From: Sphingomonas cremea
GTDB lineage: Bacteria > Pseudomonadota > Alphaproteobacteria > Sphingomonadales > Sphingomonadaceae
Reading direction: 5' to 3'
Length of the DNA stretch: 64,000 nt
NCBI RefSeq assembly: GCF_021502585.1
Contig: NZ_JAKFGM010000001.1
Span: 1,054,001 to 1,118,000 of the forward strand
The translations under genes and the position numbers were made by a program. The notes beneath the pieces are model-generated. The model was not told where the DNA came from, did not search any database, and worked only from the letters and a program-made list of their open reading frames with translations. Shown here piece after piece: positions 25,927 through 33,176 of the stretch (within the stretch, counting starts at the first letter, position 1; each line of letters starts with the position of its first letter).

Positions 25927-25934
25927 TGCTCGCG
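25927..25934. repeat. Left copy of the 8-bp target-site duplication
   Basis: TGCTCGCG lies directly outside the left terminal repeat. The same eight bases in the same orientation lie directly outside the right terminal repeat at 33131-33138. This is what a DDE transposase leaves after staggered insertion. Confidence 0.85.
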
Positions 25935-25998
25935 GGTGGTGCCTCAGTTTGAAATGGGGTGTTATGGAAACTAACGGTTGTTTAGTTTCGCTAACATT
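25935..25998 (+). repeat. Left terminal inverted repeat of the transposon
   Basis: Sixty-four bases beginning GGTGGTGCCTCAGTTTGAAA and ending with GCTAACATT. It matches the reverse complement of 33066-33130 with a few substitutions and one single-base gap; the blocks GGTGGTGCCTCAG and GTTATGGAAACTAAC are identical. Inside is an 8-bp hairpin GAAACTAA/TTAGTTTC (25967-25989), possibly a transposase binding structure. Confidence 0.88.
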
Positions 25999-26031
25999 CT
26001 GGCGGCTAGCGTTGAGGCGTTTTGAGAGCGC

Positions 26032-28629
26032 CTAGCCATCATAGTCGCGCCCCATGGCCCCGAGGTAGACTGACTTGGCGCTGGCTGCCGATGCGATGGC
26101 ATCTCGGACCTCATCATTGGTCAAATCAAGCATCCGATATTTCCCGTCGATCTCCGACACCGCCTCTATCCTGCGATAAACCGAACCATTCGCAGCCGCA
26201 TATCGGGCTAAGCCTCTTAGCTTGGGGAGTGCGTCGGCCAAATGATGCCCATGGGGATCAACAATATCGGCAACGATTCCACCCCCGTCAGTGGCCGAGA
26301 AGAATACGAAATCCGGCCGCACAATTTTTGATTCCCCATCGTCATCGTAGACAATGCCAAGGGATTCTTGGCTCGCGCGCGCCGGGTTGCGATACCAAGC
26401 CACCCGATCGCCAAGCTTCATTTCTGCCTCAAGTACGGCTCGCTCCCACTTGTTCAACTCATCTGGGAATTTTCCCTCAGGATCGCATAGCAGGTGTCGT
26501 TCGTATCTCGGCAGGGCGACTTCGGTGCCGTTCGCTTCCTTTGCAGTTGTCGGCTGTAGCCAGGCGTTCGGCCGCGCTAGATCGACATCCACGGGATCGG
26601 CGCTCATTTCCCTGATTTCGCGGTATGCTTCCTGCCGCTCGTCGGTCAGTACCCTGATCGACTCCCGGTACTCGGCTAGCCATTGCTTCGATAGCACTTC
26701 CGCCGCCGTCTCTAATTCCTCCTTGATGCTGCCGATGAGGCCCAGCGCAGCTATCGTAGTGTGGGCGTCGATGAGCGCCTCGTCGTCATCTTCCGCTTCC
26801 TTGTCCTGACTGGCCAGGTGTTCAGCATATGTCCGGGCAAGATCGGGGCTGATCACGCGGCCTGCCCGCTTGTAGGCGTCCTCAATTACGGCATAGTCAG
26901 CCTTCATCACGAAGTCGTTGAACGTCTTGGTCTGCGTTTGGGTGTTGGCGGTGAGTGTTGAGCCTTCGACTGTCAGCACAGCCTCTCGCGCTTCTTTGAT
27001 CCGGTCAGCCAGCCGGGCCTGCGCTCGGTCAAGAACCTTATGCATCTCAGCATGGGCTTTGAGCCCTGCACCGGGCAGCAGTCCATCCACGGACAGTTCG
27101 TGCGCCAATGCAGTCAACCGTTTTGCAGGGCGGGCCTGTTTTTTGGGCAAGGCTTGGGAGGGGAGCGAAAGCAGCTTGTTCCAGACACCAGCCGGGATTT
27201 CGCTATTAGGCAAGACCTCGATCGGGTTGATCAGTACCCGGCGCATAGGCAGGTCATCACCCGCTTCGCCACCATTCATCAGGGTGCTGACAACCGCGTT
27301 GACCGCATCCTTGTTGAATCGGGGAAGGAGGCAATCGACCGCATTCAGGCGATCGTTACCCGGGATGCGCCGAGCCAGCGGCGTGCGTACCATTCGGCCC
27401 AACAATTGCGTGATGTGTGTCTTGTCAGTGGCAGCCCGGAAAGAAACCATCACCTCTGCACGCGGACAGTCCCATCCCGTGCTGATCGCATCTTTGGCAA
27501 GGAGTATGCGAACCCAGTCCGATTCCTGCACCCGTTCCGGTGCGATGTAGGGTACAGAGTATTTCCCGAACGTCTCCGTACGATGTTCTCCAAACACATT
27601 GGCAATGCAATCCTGAGAAAGCTCAGGCCAGGTCTCAAATACGACGTCCAGCCAAGTCGCAATCTCGTTGTGATCGGGCGAATTCGGCACTTGCAGCACC
27701 ATTAGCGGCAGCACCGTATCCACATCGTGCTGCTGCTTCGCATACGTCGCCCACGCCTTGGAAATATCGCTGAGCTTGATCGTGGCTCGCTTCAACAAAC
27801 TGGTAGCGAAGTCACCGACCTCCTTGGGATAGTCGAGGTCAACCGTGTCTTTAATTAGGCCCGAATCCTGCACCAACTTCGAATCGACGATGACCGGACG
27901 TAGGGTGTCGTGCCCAGTCATCCCCTCCATCGCAGCGTTAAACCGTTGAACGGTCGCTGAGATTCCCCAAACGACGGGAATGCCCGGAACGGATCCGGTA
28001 CCATTGATCAACTGCCGCACTATCGTCGGCCGACCGGTGACTGTTACAAGGCCGCCGTCGCGCATGCCGCGGTGAGCCTCGTCCAAGACGAGATAAAGCG
28101 TAAGGTCTGGGTCCTCGACGGTGTTGCGGATCGTATCCCATATGGTGTGCGATCGCATGTCCGGCATTATCGGTACCTGCCGGTCATCCTTTTCGATGGA
28201 TGCATCACTTGGATCATGGCCACGGACCAGCAGGCTGTTTTTCCCCAACTTCTGGGTGTTGAGAAAATAGACTTTCCCGGCTTCAAACCGCTCGCGCCCA
28301 AAGGTGCTTTCCACCGTGACCAGATCAGATACGGTCAGCTTGTCGGAAGCTTGTTGTAGGCGCCATTTTGACTGCTCGTTCAGTGATGGATCGTCAGAGA
28401 ACCAGATGACCGCGGCTCCCGGATCGGCTTCGAAGTCGAAATCATCATTCCCAAAAAATAATGCTTCGATCACAGCAGCGGCCATCACGGTTTTGCCCGA
28501 TCCGGTCGTTGCCGAGAGGGAGAAGGCGTGCTTGTCGCCGTCGTCGTGCCAGCGTTTGCGCGCTCTTTTCAGGCGTTCGAGAACTTCGCGGACGGCGTCG
28601 TCCTGGTAATCCTTAAGCGTGAACTTCAT
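26032..28629 (-). CDS. Type III restriction enzyme Res subunit (helicase-nuclease)
   Basis: An 865-residue protein that with Mod would translocate on and cut DNA having unmethylated inverted sites. The superfamily 2 core has Walker A TTGSGKT at 41-47, DEAH at 183-186, and a late motif STGWDCPRAEVMVSFR near residue 380. The C-terminal region (about 770-800) has PDFVFF then VADIVDPHGHH, where type III nucleases normally show a PD-(D/E)xK site; an ExK lysine is not evident. The gene begins three bases after mod and ends 34 bases from the left inverted repeat, so the pair is fully inside the transposon. Confidence 0.88.
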   Translation of the reverse strand: MKFTLKDYQDDAVREVLERLKRARKRWHDDGDKHAFSLSATTGSGKTVMAAAVIEALFFGNDDFDFEADPGAAVIWFSDDPSLNEQSKWRLQQASDKLTVSDLVTVESTFGRERFEAGKVYFLNTQKLGKNSLLVRGHDPSDASIEKDDRQVPIMPDMRSHTIWDTIRNTVEDPDLTLYLVLDEAHRGMRDGGLVTVTGRPTIVRQLINGTGSVPGIPVVWGISATVQRFNAAMEGMTGHDTLRPVIVDSKLVQDSGLIKDTVDLDYPKEVGDFATSLLKRATIKLSDISKAWATYAKQQHDVDTVLPLMVLQVPNSPDHNEIATWLDVVFETWPELSQDCIANVFGEHRTETFGKYSVPYIAPERVQESDWVRILLAKDAISTGWDCPRAEVMVSFRAATDKTHITQLLGRMVRTPLARRIPGNDRLNAVDCLLPRFNKDAVNAVVSTLMNGGEAGDDLPMRRVLINPIEVLPNSEIPAGVWNKLLSLPSQALPKKQARPAKRLTALAHELSVDGLLPGAGLKAHAEMHKVLDRAQARLADRIKEAREAVLTVEGSTLTANTQTQTKTFNDFVMKADYAVIEDAYKRAGRVISPDLARTYAEHLASQDKEAEDDDEALIDAHTTIAALGLIGSIKEELETAAEVLSKQWLAEYRESIRVLTDERQEAYREIREMSADPVDVDLARPNAWLQPTTAKEANGTEVALPRYERHLLCDPEGKFPDELNKWERAVLEAEMKLGDRVAWYRNPARASQESLGIVYDDDGESKIVRPDFVFFSATDGGGIVADIVDPHGHHLADALPKLRGLARYAAANGSVYRRIEAVSEIDGKYRMLDLTNDEVRDAIASAASAKSVYLGAMGRDYDG

Positions 28630-28632
28630 CGG

Positions 28633-30774
28633 TCAACGCACCGTCGAAAAGCGAAAATTGGTAAAGTAGCTCTCATAGAGCCGCACCGGCTCAACAGTGC
28701 TAGGAAGCTGCCGAACAACGGCCTGAAACCGCCGTTCATCGTCGGTGACGATGTACGCCACGCGGATACCTCCGGCATTCGCTACTGCTTCTACAAAGGG
28801 GCCTGCATCATCGAGTTGAGTCAGCAGTCCATAGGTATCAGCTACTTCCCAACCCCGGCCGGGTAGCCTTTCGATCCGCCGACCTTCACTCCCGGCACGG
28901 AGCCATAAAAGGGGGGCGATACGCTCGAAGGCCCGGTTATGGCTGATAGCGACGGGCGTTTCATAAGTCAGCGTGAAGTACTCTGCGTTCTCCTCGAAAC
29001 CCTCTGCCATGGGGAACACATCATTGAACTTGTAGTCCCCCTGAATTGACTGACCGTTCGGTGTCTGACCCGAGATGGCCGCCCCGATACGCGGCTTGGT
29101 GATGTAGTCGCAGATGCCCCACTTCTCCCAATCAGGATCGTTGGGACGTAGGCCCTTTGCGCGCAATCGCTTGTCCTCATCAGCACCGACCTCGTTATTG
29201 GTGACTGAAATGCACTGCCGTCGACCGCCGTCCTGGCGGTTTAGTCGCATCACAGCATGTGCTGTCGTGCCGGACCCAGCGAAGAAGTCGAGGATCACAG
29301 CATCAGGCTTGTCGGACACGAAGAACCGCAACGCGTCTTCGACAGCATATAGCGATTTTGGGAATGGGAAATTGCGACCGGGAAGCAAGGATTTGAGAAC
29401 GCCGGTACCGTGTTCGGTCGCTGAATGCGAAACTTGATTCCAGACAGTGAGAGGTTGGTATTGGCGGCCAATATCCCCATAAGAAAGTATAAGCGCTCCA
29501 TCGTCATCCCAGCCCGAAGTTGAGAACTGTCCGCCGCCTCCTTCAATGTCTTTTATCTGGCCACTCGTGAGGTAATAGGGGGTTCGACTGCTCCCATCCC
29601 AAGGGCCGAACCGAACATAGCCCTTCGAAAAATTGGCAAGCATGGTTTCGCGACTAAGGGACCATGTCAGCTCTCTTCCATCGTTCCCAAGCGGCCAGAC
29701 TGCCACGGCACCTTCCGGTGGAAGCGAACTCTCAATAGCGGCGTCCTTGGGAAGGACCTGGCCCGCGCCCACAAACTTTCCATCCGCCCTGCTGAAATAC
29801 AATGGATAGAAGAGATTTGGTCGCGCTGTGCGAAGCCCGTTGCCTGCGGATCGAAGCAATGATTTCCAGCGGACAGCTGAAGACTTTGGCGCGGCATCTC
29901 GTAGCATGTCTGATGAAGCCGAGCCGACGTAGGCAGCACCCATCAACACAAAAAAGATATATTCATCTGTTCGTGAAAATAGCCCGCGCCGAGCAGACCC
30001 CTTGGGACTGATTACGCTACTAACCATTTGGATGGTCCCATCTGGGAAGGTCTGCTCAAGCAGCAATCCTAGTCGCAGATACTCCTTCTCATCGATCGTG
30101 ACGATCAATACCGAGTTTTCCGGTTTGAGAAGTTGACGGGCCACCAGTAGGCGGCGCTCCATCATGGCAAGCCACTTGGAATGGCGATAGAGATCGTCAC
30201 CCTCGACGTAGTCGTTGTTATATTTCCAGTCGCGCGCACCGGTATTGTACGGCGGATCGATGTATATCGCATCCACCTTGCCGCGGTGGGTAAAGGTCAG
30301 TGCTTCGAGGACGTGGAAGTTTTCGCCGTTGATTACAGTGTGGGATGGTTTGTTACCGCCGCGACGTATGTTGCCTGTGCTAACAAGGCCCGGGTAGATG
30401 TAATCCTTGAACTCGGCGACCACGACCAGATCGGCAATGGGAATGGTCTGCGTTTCGATTTCTTCGCCGGCCAACAGACCCAACTTGGCTTGCCGCGCTG
30501 TGCCGCTACCTTCAAGCTCCATCACCTTCCAGAGGCGCTGGTCGCCCTTAGCGCTCGATCGGCGCGGTTGCATGATCCGCACCTTGTCGCCTTTGCGGAC
30601 CGGGCGGCCAGGAAGTTCTACGGTTTCTGGTGTGTGCCGCTCAAAATTCAGCCCGAAGGCACGACGCTGCGACAGCGCCTTGAACTCCCGTTCGAGTTCT
30701 TGACCCAGAGCAGCGTTTCTAGTCTTCGTCTCCGCAATTAAGTCCGTCAGCCGCGACACAATAGGCCCCCTCAT
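28633..30774 (-). CDS. Type III DNA-methyltransferase Mod subunit (adenine-N6)
   Basis: A 713-residue methyltransferase. The catalytic DPPY motif (IDPPYNTG, 173-176) comes before the AdoMet-binding FAGSGTT (498-504), which is the beta-class order used by type III Mod proteins. The long middle part (about 230-480) should be the target recognition domain, and the C-terminal 150 residues the part that binds Res. It would methylate one adenine in a short asymmetric site and also gives Res its specificity. The recognition sequence cannot be read from the protein. Confidence 0.9.
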   Translation of the reverse strand: MRGPIVSRLTDLIAETKTRNAALGQELEREFKALSQRRAFGLNFERHTPETVELPGRPVRKGDKVRIMQPRRSSAKGDQRLWKVMELEGSGTARQAKLGLLAGEEIETQTIPIADLVVVAEFKDYIYPGLVSTGNIRRGGNKPSHTVINGENFHVLEALTFTHRGKVDAIYIDPPYNTGARDWKYNNDYVEGDDLYRHSKWLAMMERRLLVARQLLKPENSVLIVTIDEKEYLRLGLLLEQTFPDGTIQMVSSVISPKGSARRGLFSRTDEYIFFVLMGAAYVGSASSDMLRDAAPKSSAVRWKSLLRSAGNGLRTARPNLFYPLYFSRADGKFVGAGQVLPKDAAIESSLPPEGAVAVWPLGNDGRELTWSLSRETMLANFSKGYVRFGPWDGSSRTPYYLTSGQIKDIEGGGGQFSTSGWDDDGALILSYGDIGRQYQPLTVWNQVSHSATEHGTGVLKSLLPGRNFPFPKSLYAVEDALRFFVSDKPDAVILDFFAGSGTTAHAVMRLNRQDGGRRQCISVTNNEVGADEDKRLRAKGLRPNDPDWEKWGICDYITKPRIGAAISGQTPNGQSIQGDYKFNDVFPMAEGFEENAEYFTLTYETPVAISHNRAFERIAPLLWLRAGSEGRRIERLPGRGWEVADTYGLLTQLDDAGPFVEAVANAGGIRVAYIVTDDERRFQAVVRQLPSTVEPVRLYESYFTNFRFSTVR

Positions 30775-30885
30775 TCACTCAGTACTTGGCATTTTTGTTG
30801 ATGCCGGGACTCGTCAGATTGACTAGCCTCGGCCCTCGACCCTTGGCCTTGGTGCCCGAAACCTCGGGCAGTCACAATCCGGGGT

Positions 30886-31512
30886 CTAGCAATCGTTAGC
30901 GCCGAGCCCGGTAAGTCGGCGGACGGTTCGCGTCCCTTTCCGCTCAGGAAGGTAGAACGCCACAATTGGCTTTCGCCCGCGTTCCACAAGGCGACCTCCA
31001 ATTAGCTCCAGATCAACCACCAGTAGGAAGGGGTCTGTCTTGTCGAACACGTATTGGGGATCGTCGACGATACGGACTTCGTGTGCCTCGTTCACAACCA
31101 AGTAATTGGCGGCGGACGGGCTTCCCGCGAGGTAGTGAGCAATTCGGCCTGATTCGGCAAAGTCGGCCAGGAAAGAGTCAACATCTTCGGAGGGACCGAA
31201 TACCTCACAAGCGCCGTCCACGTTTAACAGCGCGTGGAATAGTGCGCCCGAGAAGGCATCAAATAGGTCCAACTCGCACTCACCCGGTGGGATGCCGAGC
31301 TTACTAAGAGCGTAGCGGATTGTGATTTCAACCACCTCAAGCGGGCTGAACTTGGCGTGCCCAGATTTACGGTGAGGAACCAGCTGGCCCCTGCGCCGCC
31401 AAACTCGCTGCAAGTCTGTGGTCAATCCGCTGATCCTTTGGAGTTCGCCGGGCGAGTACTCCGCATATTCGCAGCGACCGGCATGCAGCATCGTATTGAT
31501 CGCGTCGGTCAC
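30886..31512 (-). CDS. MerR-like helix-turn-helix regulator of the restriction operon
   Basis: A 208-residue protein. Near the N-terminus, EYSPGELQRISGLTTDLQRV and GHAKFSPLEVVEI match a winged-helix of the MerR type (recognition helix, wing, then a helix linking to ALSKLGIPPGE). The rest of the protein is not a known effector domain. It starts at GTG 31512 overlapping the upstream ORF stop (GTGA), which indicates translational coupling. It lies 111 bases before mod in the same direction and so is a candidate controller that delays restriction until methylation is complete. Confidence 0.7.
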   Translation of the reverse strand: MTDAINTMLHAGRCEYAEYSPGELQRISGLTTDLQRVWRRRGQLVPHRKSGHAKFSPLEVVEITIRYALSKLGIPPGECELDLFDAFSGALFHALLNVDGACEVFGPSEDVDSFLADFAESGRIAHYLAGSPSAANYLVVNEAHEVRIVDDPQYVFDKTDPFLLVVDLELIGGRLVERGRKPIVAFYLPERKGTRTVRRLTGLGANDC

Positions 31513-31682
31513 AGATTGTCCTCCATGATCATCTGAATCCGCGAAATCGGGATCAGTGCTTGCCGGTTCGAGCACACGCCATCCACATCCGGCACGTCGA
31601 TTAGTTCTCCGACCAAAAACCGAGTTGCCCCGGCAAACCGCTCGATTTGAGCGAGCGATGAGACCGGTAGTTGGATCGGCAT
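31509..31682 (-). CDS. Small ORF upstream of the regulator in the transposon
   Basis: A 57-residue protein starting MPIQLPVSSLAQIERFAGAT with GVCSNRQALIPISRIQMIME near the end. Its stop overlaps the GTG start of the regulator, suggesting a two-gene unit. GGAAGGA lies directly against the ATG, which is closer than ideal; the frame is open about 31 codons further, to a TTG at 31775. I do not recognise a family. It may be a regulatory partner of the gene after it. Confidence 0.5.
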   Translation of the reverse strand: MPIQLPVSSLAQIERFAGATRFLVGELIDVPDVDGVCSNRQALIPISRIQMIMEDNL

Positions 31683-31784
31683 TCCTTCCGAACATCCGAT
31701 GAGGAAAATGCGAAATTGTCCCAAAATTGAGCTCCCATTCGCCCTTTGTTCTACCGATTCGCAATTTATAGTCAACCGTGAATC

Positions 31785-31801
31785 TTGACCCTATGTGTCA
31801 A
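31785..31801. promoter_or_regulatory. Palindrome in the divergent promoter region of the transposon
   Basis: TTGAC-N7-GTCAA lies between the divergent transposase and restriction operons. It overlaps TTGACC, a possible -35 box of the transposase, and reads TTGACA on the other strand. A third TTGAC (minus strand, about 31771) lies close by. It could be an operator for the MerR-like regulator or the transposase, but this is inferred from position only. Confidence 0.4.
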
Positions 31802-31856
31802 ATCGGGCAATGCGTCTCCATGAATCGAGAATCGGAAACAGGGAGGCACATCCACA

Positions 31857-33023
31857 ATGAACCGGCTGAGCCCGCATAAGCAGGCTGCAATCATTCACGA
31901 CCTAGTAGAAGGCGGCTCGCTTCGATCGGCGGAGCGGAAACATCAAGTGAGCTTCAACACCGTGATGAAGCTCTTTGAAGACGCTGGGGATATGGCGATT
32001 GCCTACTTTGATGGGCTCAAGGACCTTGAATGCGCGCGCATTCAAGCTGACGAGATGCACACTTTCGTGGGCACGCGCGACCGGTTTGATCGGCTCACTG
32101 GCGAAGTGGCTTCCGGGTTGGGGACCGTGTGGGTCTACGTAGCGGTCGATGCGGACACCAAGATGATTGTGGATTTCCTGCCGGGCACGCGGGAAGTCTA
32201 CGACGCTACCAGATTTATGAAATCAATAGCGAGCAAGCTGCGTCGCGATTCCTTTGGCAGGTTTGCAGTTCGGCCGACGATCGTCACAGATGGATTACCG
32301 GCCTGCAAGGAAGCCACCGCCATCGCCTTCGGCACAGATGCCGATGTCGGCATGATGATCAAGAAATACTCGGATGTGGGCAAAAAGGGCCAAAAGCTCT
32401 CACGCGAGCGATATATCGGAGCTGATCGGGTCACCTTGATTGGAAGTCCCAAGTATGAGGACATCCACACGTCGTACATCGAACGCACCAATCTCAACTT
32501 GCGCATGGATATCAAGCGCCTGGGCCGGAAATCGAACGCGTTCTCGAAGAAGCTACTCAACCTGAAACGGCACCTCGCGCTATGGGCGCTCTATTTCAAC
32601 TTCTGCCGTGTCCATAAGGCGTTGAGAATGCCTCCAGCGATGGCCGCCGGTCTCAGTGATCACATTTGGGAGGTCGATGAAATCGTCCAGCGCACCAGTG
32701 AATTCCTCGCCGAGAGGCTAAGGAATCAGGTGGCAAATGATGATCCGGCCGAGGAGGTCAGTTCTGATGCGATACCGACCCATTGGGTCTATCGCAGCAC
32801 CTTGCACTACCTCGCAAAGGTCCACGCTGCGGACTGTTACCATTGCAAGCACGGTGAGGGACAGCGGCGCGGCAATCAGAAAGCGGGGGAATGGCTTCCG
32901 TTCTATTCGCAAGAGAGCGCCATGGTAGCGGCGGCCGCGCTAGAGCCTGACCGCCATGCTGTATGCAACGTTTGCATTGGCTCGTATCGCAATGCCGGTG
33001 GTTACCGAGGCCCACGGCGATGA
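31857..33023 (+). CDS. IS1-like DDE transposase with a C-terminal zinc-ribbon-like domain
   Basis: A 388-residue transposase. Residues 1-45 form a helix-turn-helix (SLRSAERKHQVSFNTVMKLF). The catalytic domain has the acid triad at Asp65 (IQADEMHTF), Asp145 (IVTDGLPACK) and Glu209 (SYIERTNLNLRM), in the spacing of IS1-type transposases, plus FSKKLLNLKRHLALW. After about residue 290 comes an extra ~95-residue segment with CYHC (327-330) and CNVC (370-373), likely a zinc ribbon. GGGAGG lies ten bases before the ATG. It ends 42 bases from the right inverted repeat. Confidence 0.88.
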   Translation: MNRLSPHKQAAIIHDLVEGGSLRSAERKHQVSFNTVMKLFEDAGDMAIAYFDGLKDLECARIQADEMHTFVGTRDRFDRLTGEVASGLGTVWVYVAVDADTKMIVDFLPGTREVYDATRFMKSIASKLRRDSFGRFAVRPTIVTDGLPACKEATAIAFGTDADVGMMIKKYSDVGKKGQKLSRERYIGADRVTLIGSPKYEDIHTSYIERTNLNLRMDIKRLGRKSNAFSKKLLNLKRHLALWALYFNFCRVHKALRMPPAMAAGLSDHIWEVDEIVQRTSEFLAERLRNQVANDDPAEEVSSDAIPTHWVYRSTLHYLAKVHAADCYHCKHGEGQRRGNQKAGEWLPFYSQESAMVAAAALEPDRHAVCNVCIGSYRNAGGYRGPRR

Positions 33024-33065
33024 TCGGCGATCCAGCTAGAGCATCCCCTCGGTGCGGGCTGACAA

Positions 33066-33130
33066 ATGTTAGCCAAACTGAACACGGTGTTAGTTTCCAT
33101 AACCCGCGATTTCAGACTGAGGCACCACCT
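33066..33130 (-). repeat. Right terminal inverted repeat of the transposon
   Basis: Sixty-five bases whose reverse complement begins GGTGGTGCCTCAGTCTGAAA and ends GCTAACATT. It pairs with the left end over its whole length, with most differences around the middle. It lies just after the transposase gene and is followed at once by the second copy of the 8-bp direct repeat. Confidence 0.88.
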
Positions 33131-33138
33131 GCTCGCGA
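33131..33138. repeat. Right copy of the 8-bp target-site duplication
   Basis: TGCTCGCG immediately follows the right terminal repeat and is identical in sequence and orientation to 25927-25934. The bases just outside the two copies differ, as expected for a genuine target duplication. Confidence 0.85.
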
Positions 33139-33146
33139 TGCTTCCT

Positions 33147-33176
33147 TGACATTTTGCCCCTCTGCCCTGTAGCGCG
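33147..33176 (+). promoter_or_regulatory. Candidate promoter of the DEAD-box helicase gene
   Basis: TTGACA (33147-33152), a full -35 consensus, is followed 18 bases later by TAGCGC, a weak -10 box. It lies just outside the right end of the transposon and about 50 bases before the helicase ATG, so the insertion has left it whole but only about 10 bases from the element. Confidence 0.45.

Follow-up and report, generated by a model that had tools for sequence, protein, structure and literature searches.

The 64,000-nucleotide stretch of the Sphingomonas cremea genome analysed here (contig NZ_JAKFGM010000001.1, positions 1,054,001 to 1,118,000; hereafter the window) contains a transposon of 7,195 bp at window positions 25935-33129, which is bounded by imperfect terminal inverted repeats of about 64 bp and carries a type III-like mod-res gene pair. 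Comparison of its sequence with those of related elements indicates, with a probability of roughly 0.87, that it belongs to an IS1-related group of DDE transposons, that its mod-res cargo is exchangeable and that the group preferentially inserts about 50 bp upstream of a σ70-type transcription start. The element and the adjoining promoter-like site consist of the following features (window positions).

25927-25934, no strand: left copy of the 8 bp target duplication, TGCTCGCG (sequence and repeat comparison).
25935-25998, + strand: left, cargo-side terminal inverted repeat, beginning GGTGGTGCCTCAGTTTGAAAT (repeat comparison).
26032-28629, − strand: res, predicted ResIII/DEAD-type helicase with a C-terminal PD..D region, 865 amino acids (domain and motif searches).
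28633-30774, − strand: mod, predicted type III DNA methyltransferase, 713 amino acids (PADLOC and domain search).
30886-31512, − strand: MerR-like protein, about 208 amino acids from a GTG start, probable backbone gene (profile match, conservation).
31509-31775, − strand: small open reading frame (ORF) of 88 amino acids or shorter, overlapping the start of the MerR-like gene, probable backbone gene (ORF list, conservation).
31857-33023, + strand: IS1-related DDE transposase of a long form with a Cys-containing C-terminal extension, 388 amino acids (profile searches, model).
33066-33129, − strand: right, transposase-side terminal inverted repeat (repeat comparison).
33130-33137, no strand: right copy of the 8 bp target duplication, TGCTCGCG (sequence and repeat comparison).
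33146-33151, + strand: TTGACA, putative −35 of the helicase promoter, at offset 16 from the element end.
33168-33173, + strand: TGTAGC, putative −10, at offset 38 from the element end.

The left and right ends are identical at 37 of their first 41 bases, with partial identity continuing to about 64 bp, compared with 23/41 for the runner-up inverted match to the left end's 41 bases in the whole 64-kb window. The initial annotation, made from the sequence alone, had placed the repeats at 25935-25998 and 33066-33130; the left one stands, and the right one ends at 33129, one base shorter. The exact 8 bp direct repeats that it reported outside both ends are confirmed, as is the DDE transposase near one end. 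Inside the element the order is res, mod, the MerR-like gene and the small ORF, all on the − strand, followed by the divergent transposase gene near the right end, and the G+C content of these genes (0.51-0.58) lies below the window mean of 0.61, that of the helicase gene outside being 0.63. A composite transposon was considered and rejected, given one transposase match in the genome, single ends and no two flanking insertion sequence (IS) copies. The view of the whole unit as one IS1-related transporter element whose cargo is a type III-like mod-res operon is retained.

IS1 classically has InsA and InsB′ (PMC8944449). The window transposase is one uninterrupted ORF of 388 amino acids without this two-ORF organisation; it passes the Pfam DDE_Tnp_IS1 profile (30.1 bits, cut-off 24.1) and fails the NCBIfam IS1 equivalog (47.4 bits, cut-off 100). 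When 36 transposases were scanned, all 36 matched the NCBIfam IS1 model, no other family being matched by as many, and 35 matched Pfam DDE_Tnp_IS1. The IS1595 profile was matched by 15/36 and more weakly than IS1 (best E-value 3.7e-8 versus 2.2e-20), and membership of IS1595 was rejected because the transposases are closer to the IS1 profile. The profile libraries used include Mutator-type models, and at E-values up to 0.001 the 36 transposases matched none of these (IS256, ISLre2, ISKra4). The acidic residues D65/E66, D145 and E209 are invariant across the transposases, at positions that would fit a DDE site. The predicted fold (predicted local distance difference test score, pLDDT, 82.8) matches the ISCth4 transposase and retroviral integrases at template modelling (TM) scores of about 0.2-0.3 of the query; ISCth4, the best structure match, is presumably an IS256-type transposase, and given this low-scoring match a deep link of the IS1-related group to Mutator-type transposases may exist. 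The designation 'IS1-like' in the initial annotation therefore holds only loosely, and the element is IS1-related, yet outside IS1 in the strict sense, because it misses the NCBIfam cut-off and lacks the two-ORF organisation.

Mod is convincingly assigned to type III by a strong PADLOC MTase_III match (E-value 1.1e-278), and the adjoining res encodes a ResIII helicase domain (Pfam). The reference type III restriction-modification (RM) systems are of the EcoP1I/EcoP15I type, and Res of type III systems has a PD-(D/E)XK nuclease motif. The pair resembles such systems in the adjacency of mod and res and in both domain matches; it differs in being carried by a transposon and in its nuclease region, where PD..D-I-V/I-D is followed 15 residues on by a conserved lysine (K802) and D/E-x-K is absent from the usual place in the C-terminal region, both in the window Res and in three relatives. 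Of the complete type III RM operon proposed initially, the type III mod with its adjacent ResIII helicase gene is upheld and the completeness is not; mod-res is better called a type III-like pair with a predicted restriction function. Full-length Mod relatives with 62-64% identity occur in 3 of 298 family genomes besides its own, each with an adjacent res (66-67% identity). The 20-kb stretches around these three pairs contain no match to the transposase, the MerR-like protein or the small ORF, and nearby genes resemble, by eye, tyrosine-type integrases; since these relatives occur without the transposon, the latter is not the only vehicle of mod-res.

The transposon, for its part, is found with other cargo. 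Long-form transposases (ORFs of 388-417 amino acids with the C-terminal extension) number five, namely those of the window, L034 (genome G238, same genus), L029 (a Sphingomonas daechungensis plasmid, with which a further genus match, G403, is taken to be the same), L360 (G518) and L035 (G065). The bounded elements measure 7,195 bp (window), 8,921 bp (L034), 8,524 bp (L029, whose end pair is the weakest of the bounded long forms at 17/25) and 9,705 bp (L360), and L035 is unbounded, its contig beginning inside the cargo. L034 carries a response regulator with an HWE/HisKA_2 histidine kinase (L034:14793-16197) and a globin-like gene; L029 carries an HNH endonuclease, an AAA protein, YaaC and, according to the record annotation, an ABC-three-component gene; L360 carries an ArsR-type regulator, an AcrB-type pump and an outer-membrane factor, which by eye are CzcCBA-like. 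Neither mod nor res has a match in the L029, L034 and L035 loci, most of the L035 cargo lying off its contig.

These elements also bear on the MerR-like gene and the small ORF, which the initial annotation had taken for the RM system's own controller. That the two genes were captured along with mod-res would agree with their place between the transposase gene and mod, divergent from the former and on the strand shared with mod-res. Such a capture is nevertheless unlikely, as the MerR-like protein adjoins the transposase in L029 (55%), L035 (51%) and L034 (36%), where mod and res are unmatched, and as both genes are missing around the three mod-res pairs found without the transposon. The MerR-like gene stands beside the transposase gene in four of the five long forms, the exception being L360, and tblastn detects the small ORF in the window, L029 and L035, with a further copy recognised by eye in L034. 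The role of RM controller is accordingly not supported, since L029 and L034 have the same two-gene cassette next to their transposase genes and lack mod-res, and because the cassette recurs with other cargo both genes are best regarded as transposon backbone. Among 385 class genomes, the MerR-like protein matched its own genome and one other weakly (35%), and nothing more. A 292-amino-acid version of its ORF, extending to 31764, is probably too long.

Relatives of the transposase, its own genome counted, occur in 7/71 genomes of the genus, 23/397 of the family and 44/385 of the class. A scan of species genomes yielded 534 relatives, of which the best 80 were taken; titles among these best 80 of 534 include Acidobacteria, Verrucomicrobia, Nitrospirae, Planctomycetota and others. 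Viral contigs yielded 165, of which again the best 80 were taken, and when these contigs were searched with the sequence of a single short-form transposase, three loci only were found. Elements were bounded by requiring 25 bp ends that start with GG and are alike at 17/25 positions or more, exact 8 bp duplications and a transposase inside. Bounded pairs were obtained at 100 of 191 loci (97 after removal of 3 duplicates), and chimeras of unrelated locus halves, serving as a control, gave 0/60. A later set of 115 loci, many of them repeating first-set contigs, contributed 33 further distinct elements, for a total of 130 distinct elements with 129 different duplications, commonly with the end GGTAGTGTCTCAGTTTGAAAT or close variants of it. 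Other copies with similar ends and different 8 bp duplications, for which the initial annotation had proposed a search, are thus found across related elements. The median length of the 130 elements is 3.1 kb, with 2 below 1.5 kb, 3 at 1.5-2 kb, 119 at 2-4.5 kb and 6 larger.

The flanks of these elements carry a promoter motif in a fixed register. Of the first 97 elements, 15 have TTGAC at offset 15 in the transposase-side flank and 12 in the cargo-side flank (means at other offsets 0.05 and 0.13 respectively); in the independent 33 elements the counts are 1 and 5 (0.03 and 0.05). Taking either side, 33/130 elements have TTGAC at 15, whereas the count averages 0.24 over offsets 25-99 and never exceeds 2 there, and 62/130 have TTG at 15 on at least one side, compared with a mean of 4.04 over the same offsets. 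Further out, TANNNT occurs at offset 38 in 18/260 flanks (mean 2.35), and the mean likeness to TATAAT at this offset is 2.21 where the flank has TTG at 15/16 (72 flanks) and 1.31 where it does not (188 flanks). Offsets 15 and 38 correspond to the −35 and −10 of a σ70-type promoter with a 17-bp spacer, which places the duplication at roughly −50 to −43. Of the target TTGACs (offset 15/16), 12/37 are followed at 16-18 bp by a −10 matching 4/6 bases or more, compared with 64/454 intergenic controls (p 3e-4), and this extra match points to whole promoters or bound polymerase as what is sensed. Within the target set, a 14-mer is common to the flanks of the window and G238 and to no others. The element ends themselves carry TTGA at their own offset 14, and one transposase DNA-binding domain might therefore read both the ends and the TTGAC target. 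A palindromic target was rejected, TTG at 15 being present on both sides in 2/97 only and GTCAA having no peak; also rejected was a preference for one end to face the promoter (TTGAC at 15 on 16 versus 17 flanks, TTG on 32 versus 32).

The register could also be a by-product of selection, in which insertions into genes, or between a promoter and its gene, have been lost. Junctions are indeed rarer in long ORFs (59/130, compared with 2193/2600 random positions), as selection too would give. Selection would, however, be expected to leave a broad upstream zone, and not a peak at a single offset such as that of TTGAC at 15; moreover, 11/37 target TTGACs lie inside called ORFs (2245/2650 for control TTGACs). 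This explanation is very unlikely, and promoter-register targeting is the simplest reading, because selection alone would not yield single-base precision.

Several observations nonetheless weigh against a transposon family with promoter-register targeting. No TTG stands at 15 on either side of 68/130 elements, so that the target rule is a preference, and the long-form L360 has no TTGAC target. Among intergenic TTGACs, the targets are not in excess 25-200 bp before an ORF start (8/26, controls 118/405), and viral contigs show the motif more weakly, with TTGAC at 15/16 in 7/47 compared with 29/83 other loci. In the first set, 91/191 loci gave no bounded pair, for which cut contigs, decay or divergence are possible causes, and the S. 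cremea genome (2.55 Mb, 9 contigs) holds a single transposase match.

The insertion site of the window element was followed in the genus, where 70 other genomes were searched and 29 loci fetched. TTGAC lies 79-94 bp upstream of the helicase start in 28 of these 29. One locus holds a different element, and in 26 of the remaining 28 the gene for a small protein is directly upstream of the helicase gene, the gene order of the other two being ambiguous. The empty site anticipated by the initial annotation is therefore seen as an uninterrupted junction of these two genes, and a base-exact empty site was not found in the relatives, the sequence between stop codon and promoter being variable. The elements of the window and G238 lie between the same two genes, in opposite orientations, each with TTGACA starting 16 bp outside its end; their transposases are 57% identical and their duplications differ (TGCTCGCG in the window, AAGTCTCA in G238). 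One ancestral insertion whose cargo was later replaced would account for the shared site and spacing and for the relatedness of the transposases, yet it is most improbable in view of the opposite orientations, the exact 8 bp duplication that each element has of its own and the uninterrupted junction in 26/28 other loci. That an RM island was framed by chance by two unrelated solo ends can be dismissed, given the 37/41 identity of the ends (next best 23) with their exact duplications, the 0/60 chimera control and the same 26 uninterrupted loci.

Set against known systems, the element acts like a transporter IS that chooses its targets in the manner of TnGBS. IS1 has ends GGTGATGCTG and duplications of 8-9 bp; the ends here begin GGT and the duplications are 8 bp. 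The elements differ from IS1 in being mostly 2-10 kb long with cargo, in their promoter-register target and in their single-ORF transposase. Transporter ISs and the IS1595 family were reportedly treated by Siguier, Gagnevin and Chandler in 2009. Transporter ISs (tISs) are IS ends around passenger genes unrelated to transposition (PMC3129680). The elements described here conform to this definition, with IS ends and a transposase enclosing such genes, and differ from tISs and IS1595 in that cargo is near constant (125/130 are at least 2 kb). For TnGBS and related ISs, PMC3942029 reports preferential insertion 15-17 bp upstream of the σA −35, a register shared by ISLre2 (p-MULT 3) and the ISKra4 group (p-MULT 4), all of the Mutator superfamily; it adds that near-symmetric ends allow p-MULT elements to insert either way round, links an aspartate-containing motif to the targeting of promoters, and proposes contact with the RNA polymerase initiation complex by analogy with Ty3. 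The same distance upstream of the −35 is found here as a preference (62/130 for TTG at 15), and the 32:32 split between ends with insertion in both orientations fits the rule proposed there for near-symmetric ends (PMC3942029). The group differs from p-MULT elements in being IS1-related and mostly cargo-bearing, with transposases that have no Mutator-type match. Passenger genes in IS elements are already known, as is the 15-17 bp promoter register in the Mutator superfamily (PMC3942029); as far as searched, the register in an IS1-related, cargo-bearing group is new. No description of such a group was found in a search that covered mostly titles and the beginnings of abstracts, without ISfinder and most subscription papers.

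From these features we infer a transposition whose biochemistry would run as follows. The transposase would bind both ends of about 64 bp, join them to the target with an 8 bp stagger and move everything between them, whilst the divergent small ORF and the MerR-like protein may regulate or assist the process. At the target, the element would insert in either orientation about 50 bp before the promoter start, with one of its ends facing the −35 box from a distance of 15-16 bp, and insertion at this upstream position would leave promoter and gene intact. The mod-res cargo would give restriction and help to keep the element. It is a tentative proposal, rated somewhat below even odds, that a large, multi-phylum IS1-related group senses σ70 promoters, perhaps via bound RNA polymerase, and inserts at about −50, the register having arisen in a second superfamily besides the Mutator-type. 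If true, the safe site at about −50 would spare host genes and bring cargo for phage defence, toxin-antitoxin function and resistance next to active promoters, and a register in a second transposase superfamily would suggest one shared host contact. With two transposase groups at the same spot, the proposed RNA polymerase contact becomes directly testable by comparison. With one transposase, two ends and exchangeable cargo, the elements offer a route for single defence, toxin-antitoxin and metal-efflux modules between bacteria, and ends of this type can be used to search for defence genes not yet known.

Cargo across the family was assessed in 120 elements by comparing the longest non-transposase ORF with the longest ORF of an equal-length flank stretch at the same locus; the window and 9 elements without a usable flank or control ORF were excluded, and spurious ORFs were kept. 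IrrE-like Peptidase_M78 was matched by 34/120 cargo ORFs and HTH_3 by 37/120, and both are absent from the list of 25 families for the 120 control ORFs (counts down to 1). PADLOC models named RmrA matched up to 31/120 cargo ORFs; the top listed PADLOC matches in the controls are methyltransferases and one other model, at 3/120 each. By these profile matches the family cargo appears rich in XRE-ImmA/IrrE proteins, and also includes toxin-antitoxin, methyltransferase and efflux genes. A pure defence reading of this cargo is weakened by the methyltransferases in control flanks as well, and where M78/HTH proteins match PADLOC regulators the match may be a cross-hit. Single cargo matches comprise a HigB-like toxin, Fic, Zeta toxin, SocA/Panacea antitoxin, GmrSD restriction endonuclease, N6 methylases, a methylase-Mrr-like fusion, an AbiEii-like AAA protein and a ClpP-like SDH protease. 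A basic protein of about 60-150 amino acids, typically about 80, is encoded near the non-transposase end in 51/97 elements, many of them short forms (e.g. L170:8799-9029), and often ends like GGKARAxxLTPEQRxEIAxxAAxARWKK. Its gene may be part of the short-form backbone, and the one member scanned had no Pfam match.

Some individual loci deserve mention. L158 lies between two divergent promoter-like sites, with TTGAC on both sides (offsets 15 and 16). In the flanks of L125, L126, L136 and L065 a second end of the same type occurs at the 8 bp duplication or a few bases beyond it, as if elements lay in tandem and shared one duplication. The sole relative in a phage record, L430, is an unannotated transposase relative (33%) in the 321 kb Brevundimonas phage vB_BpoS-Gurke (ON529850.1, 174803-175666), between a DNA polymerase gene and a hypothetical gene. 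Finally, L375:8347-17470 is a bounded element of 9.1 kb with its transposase near one end.

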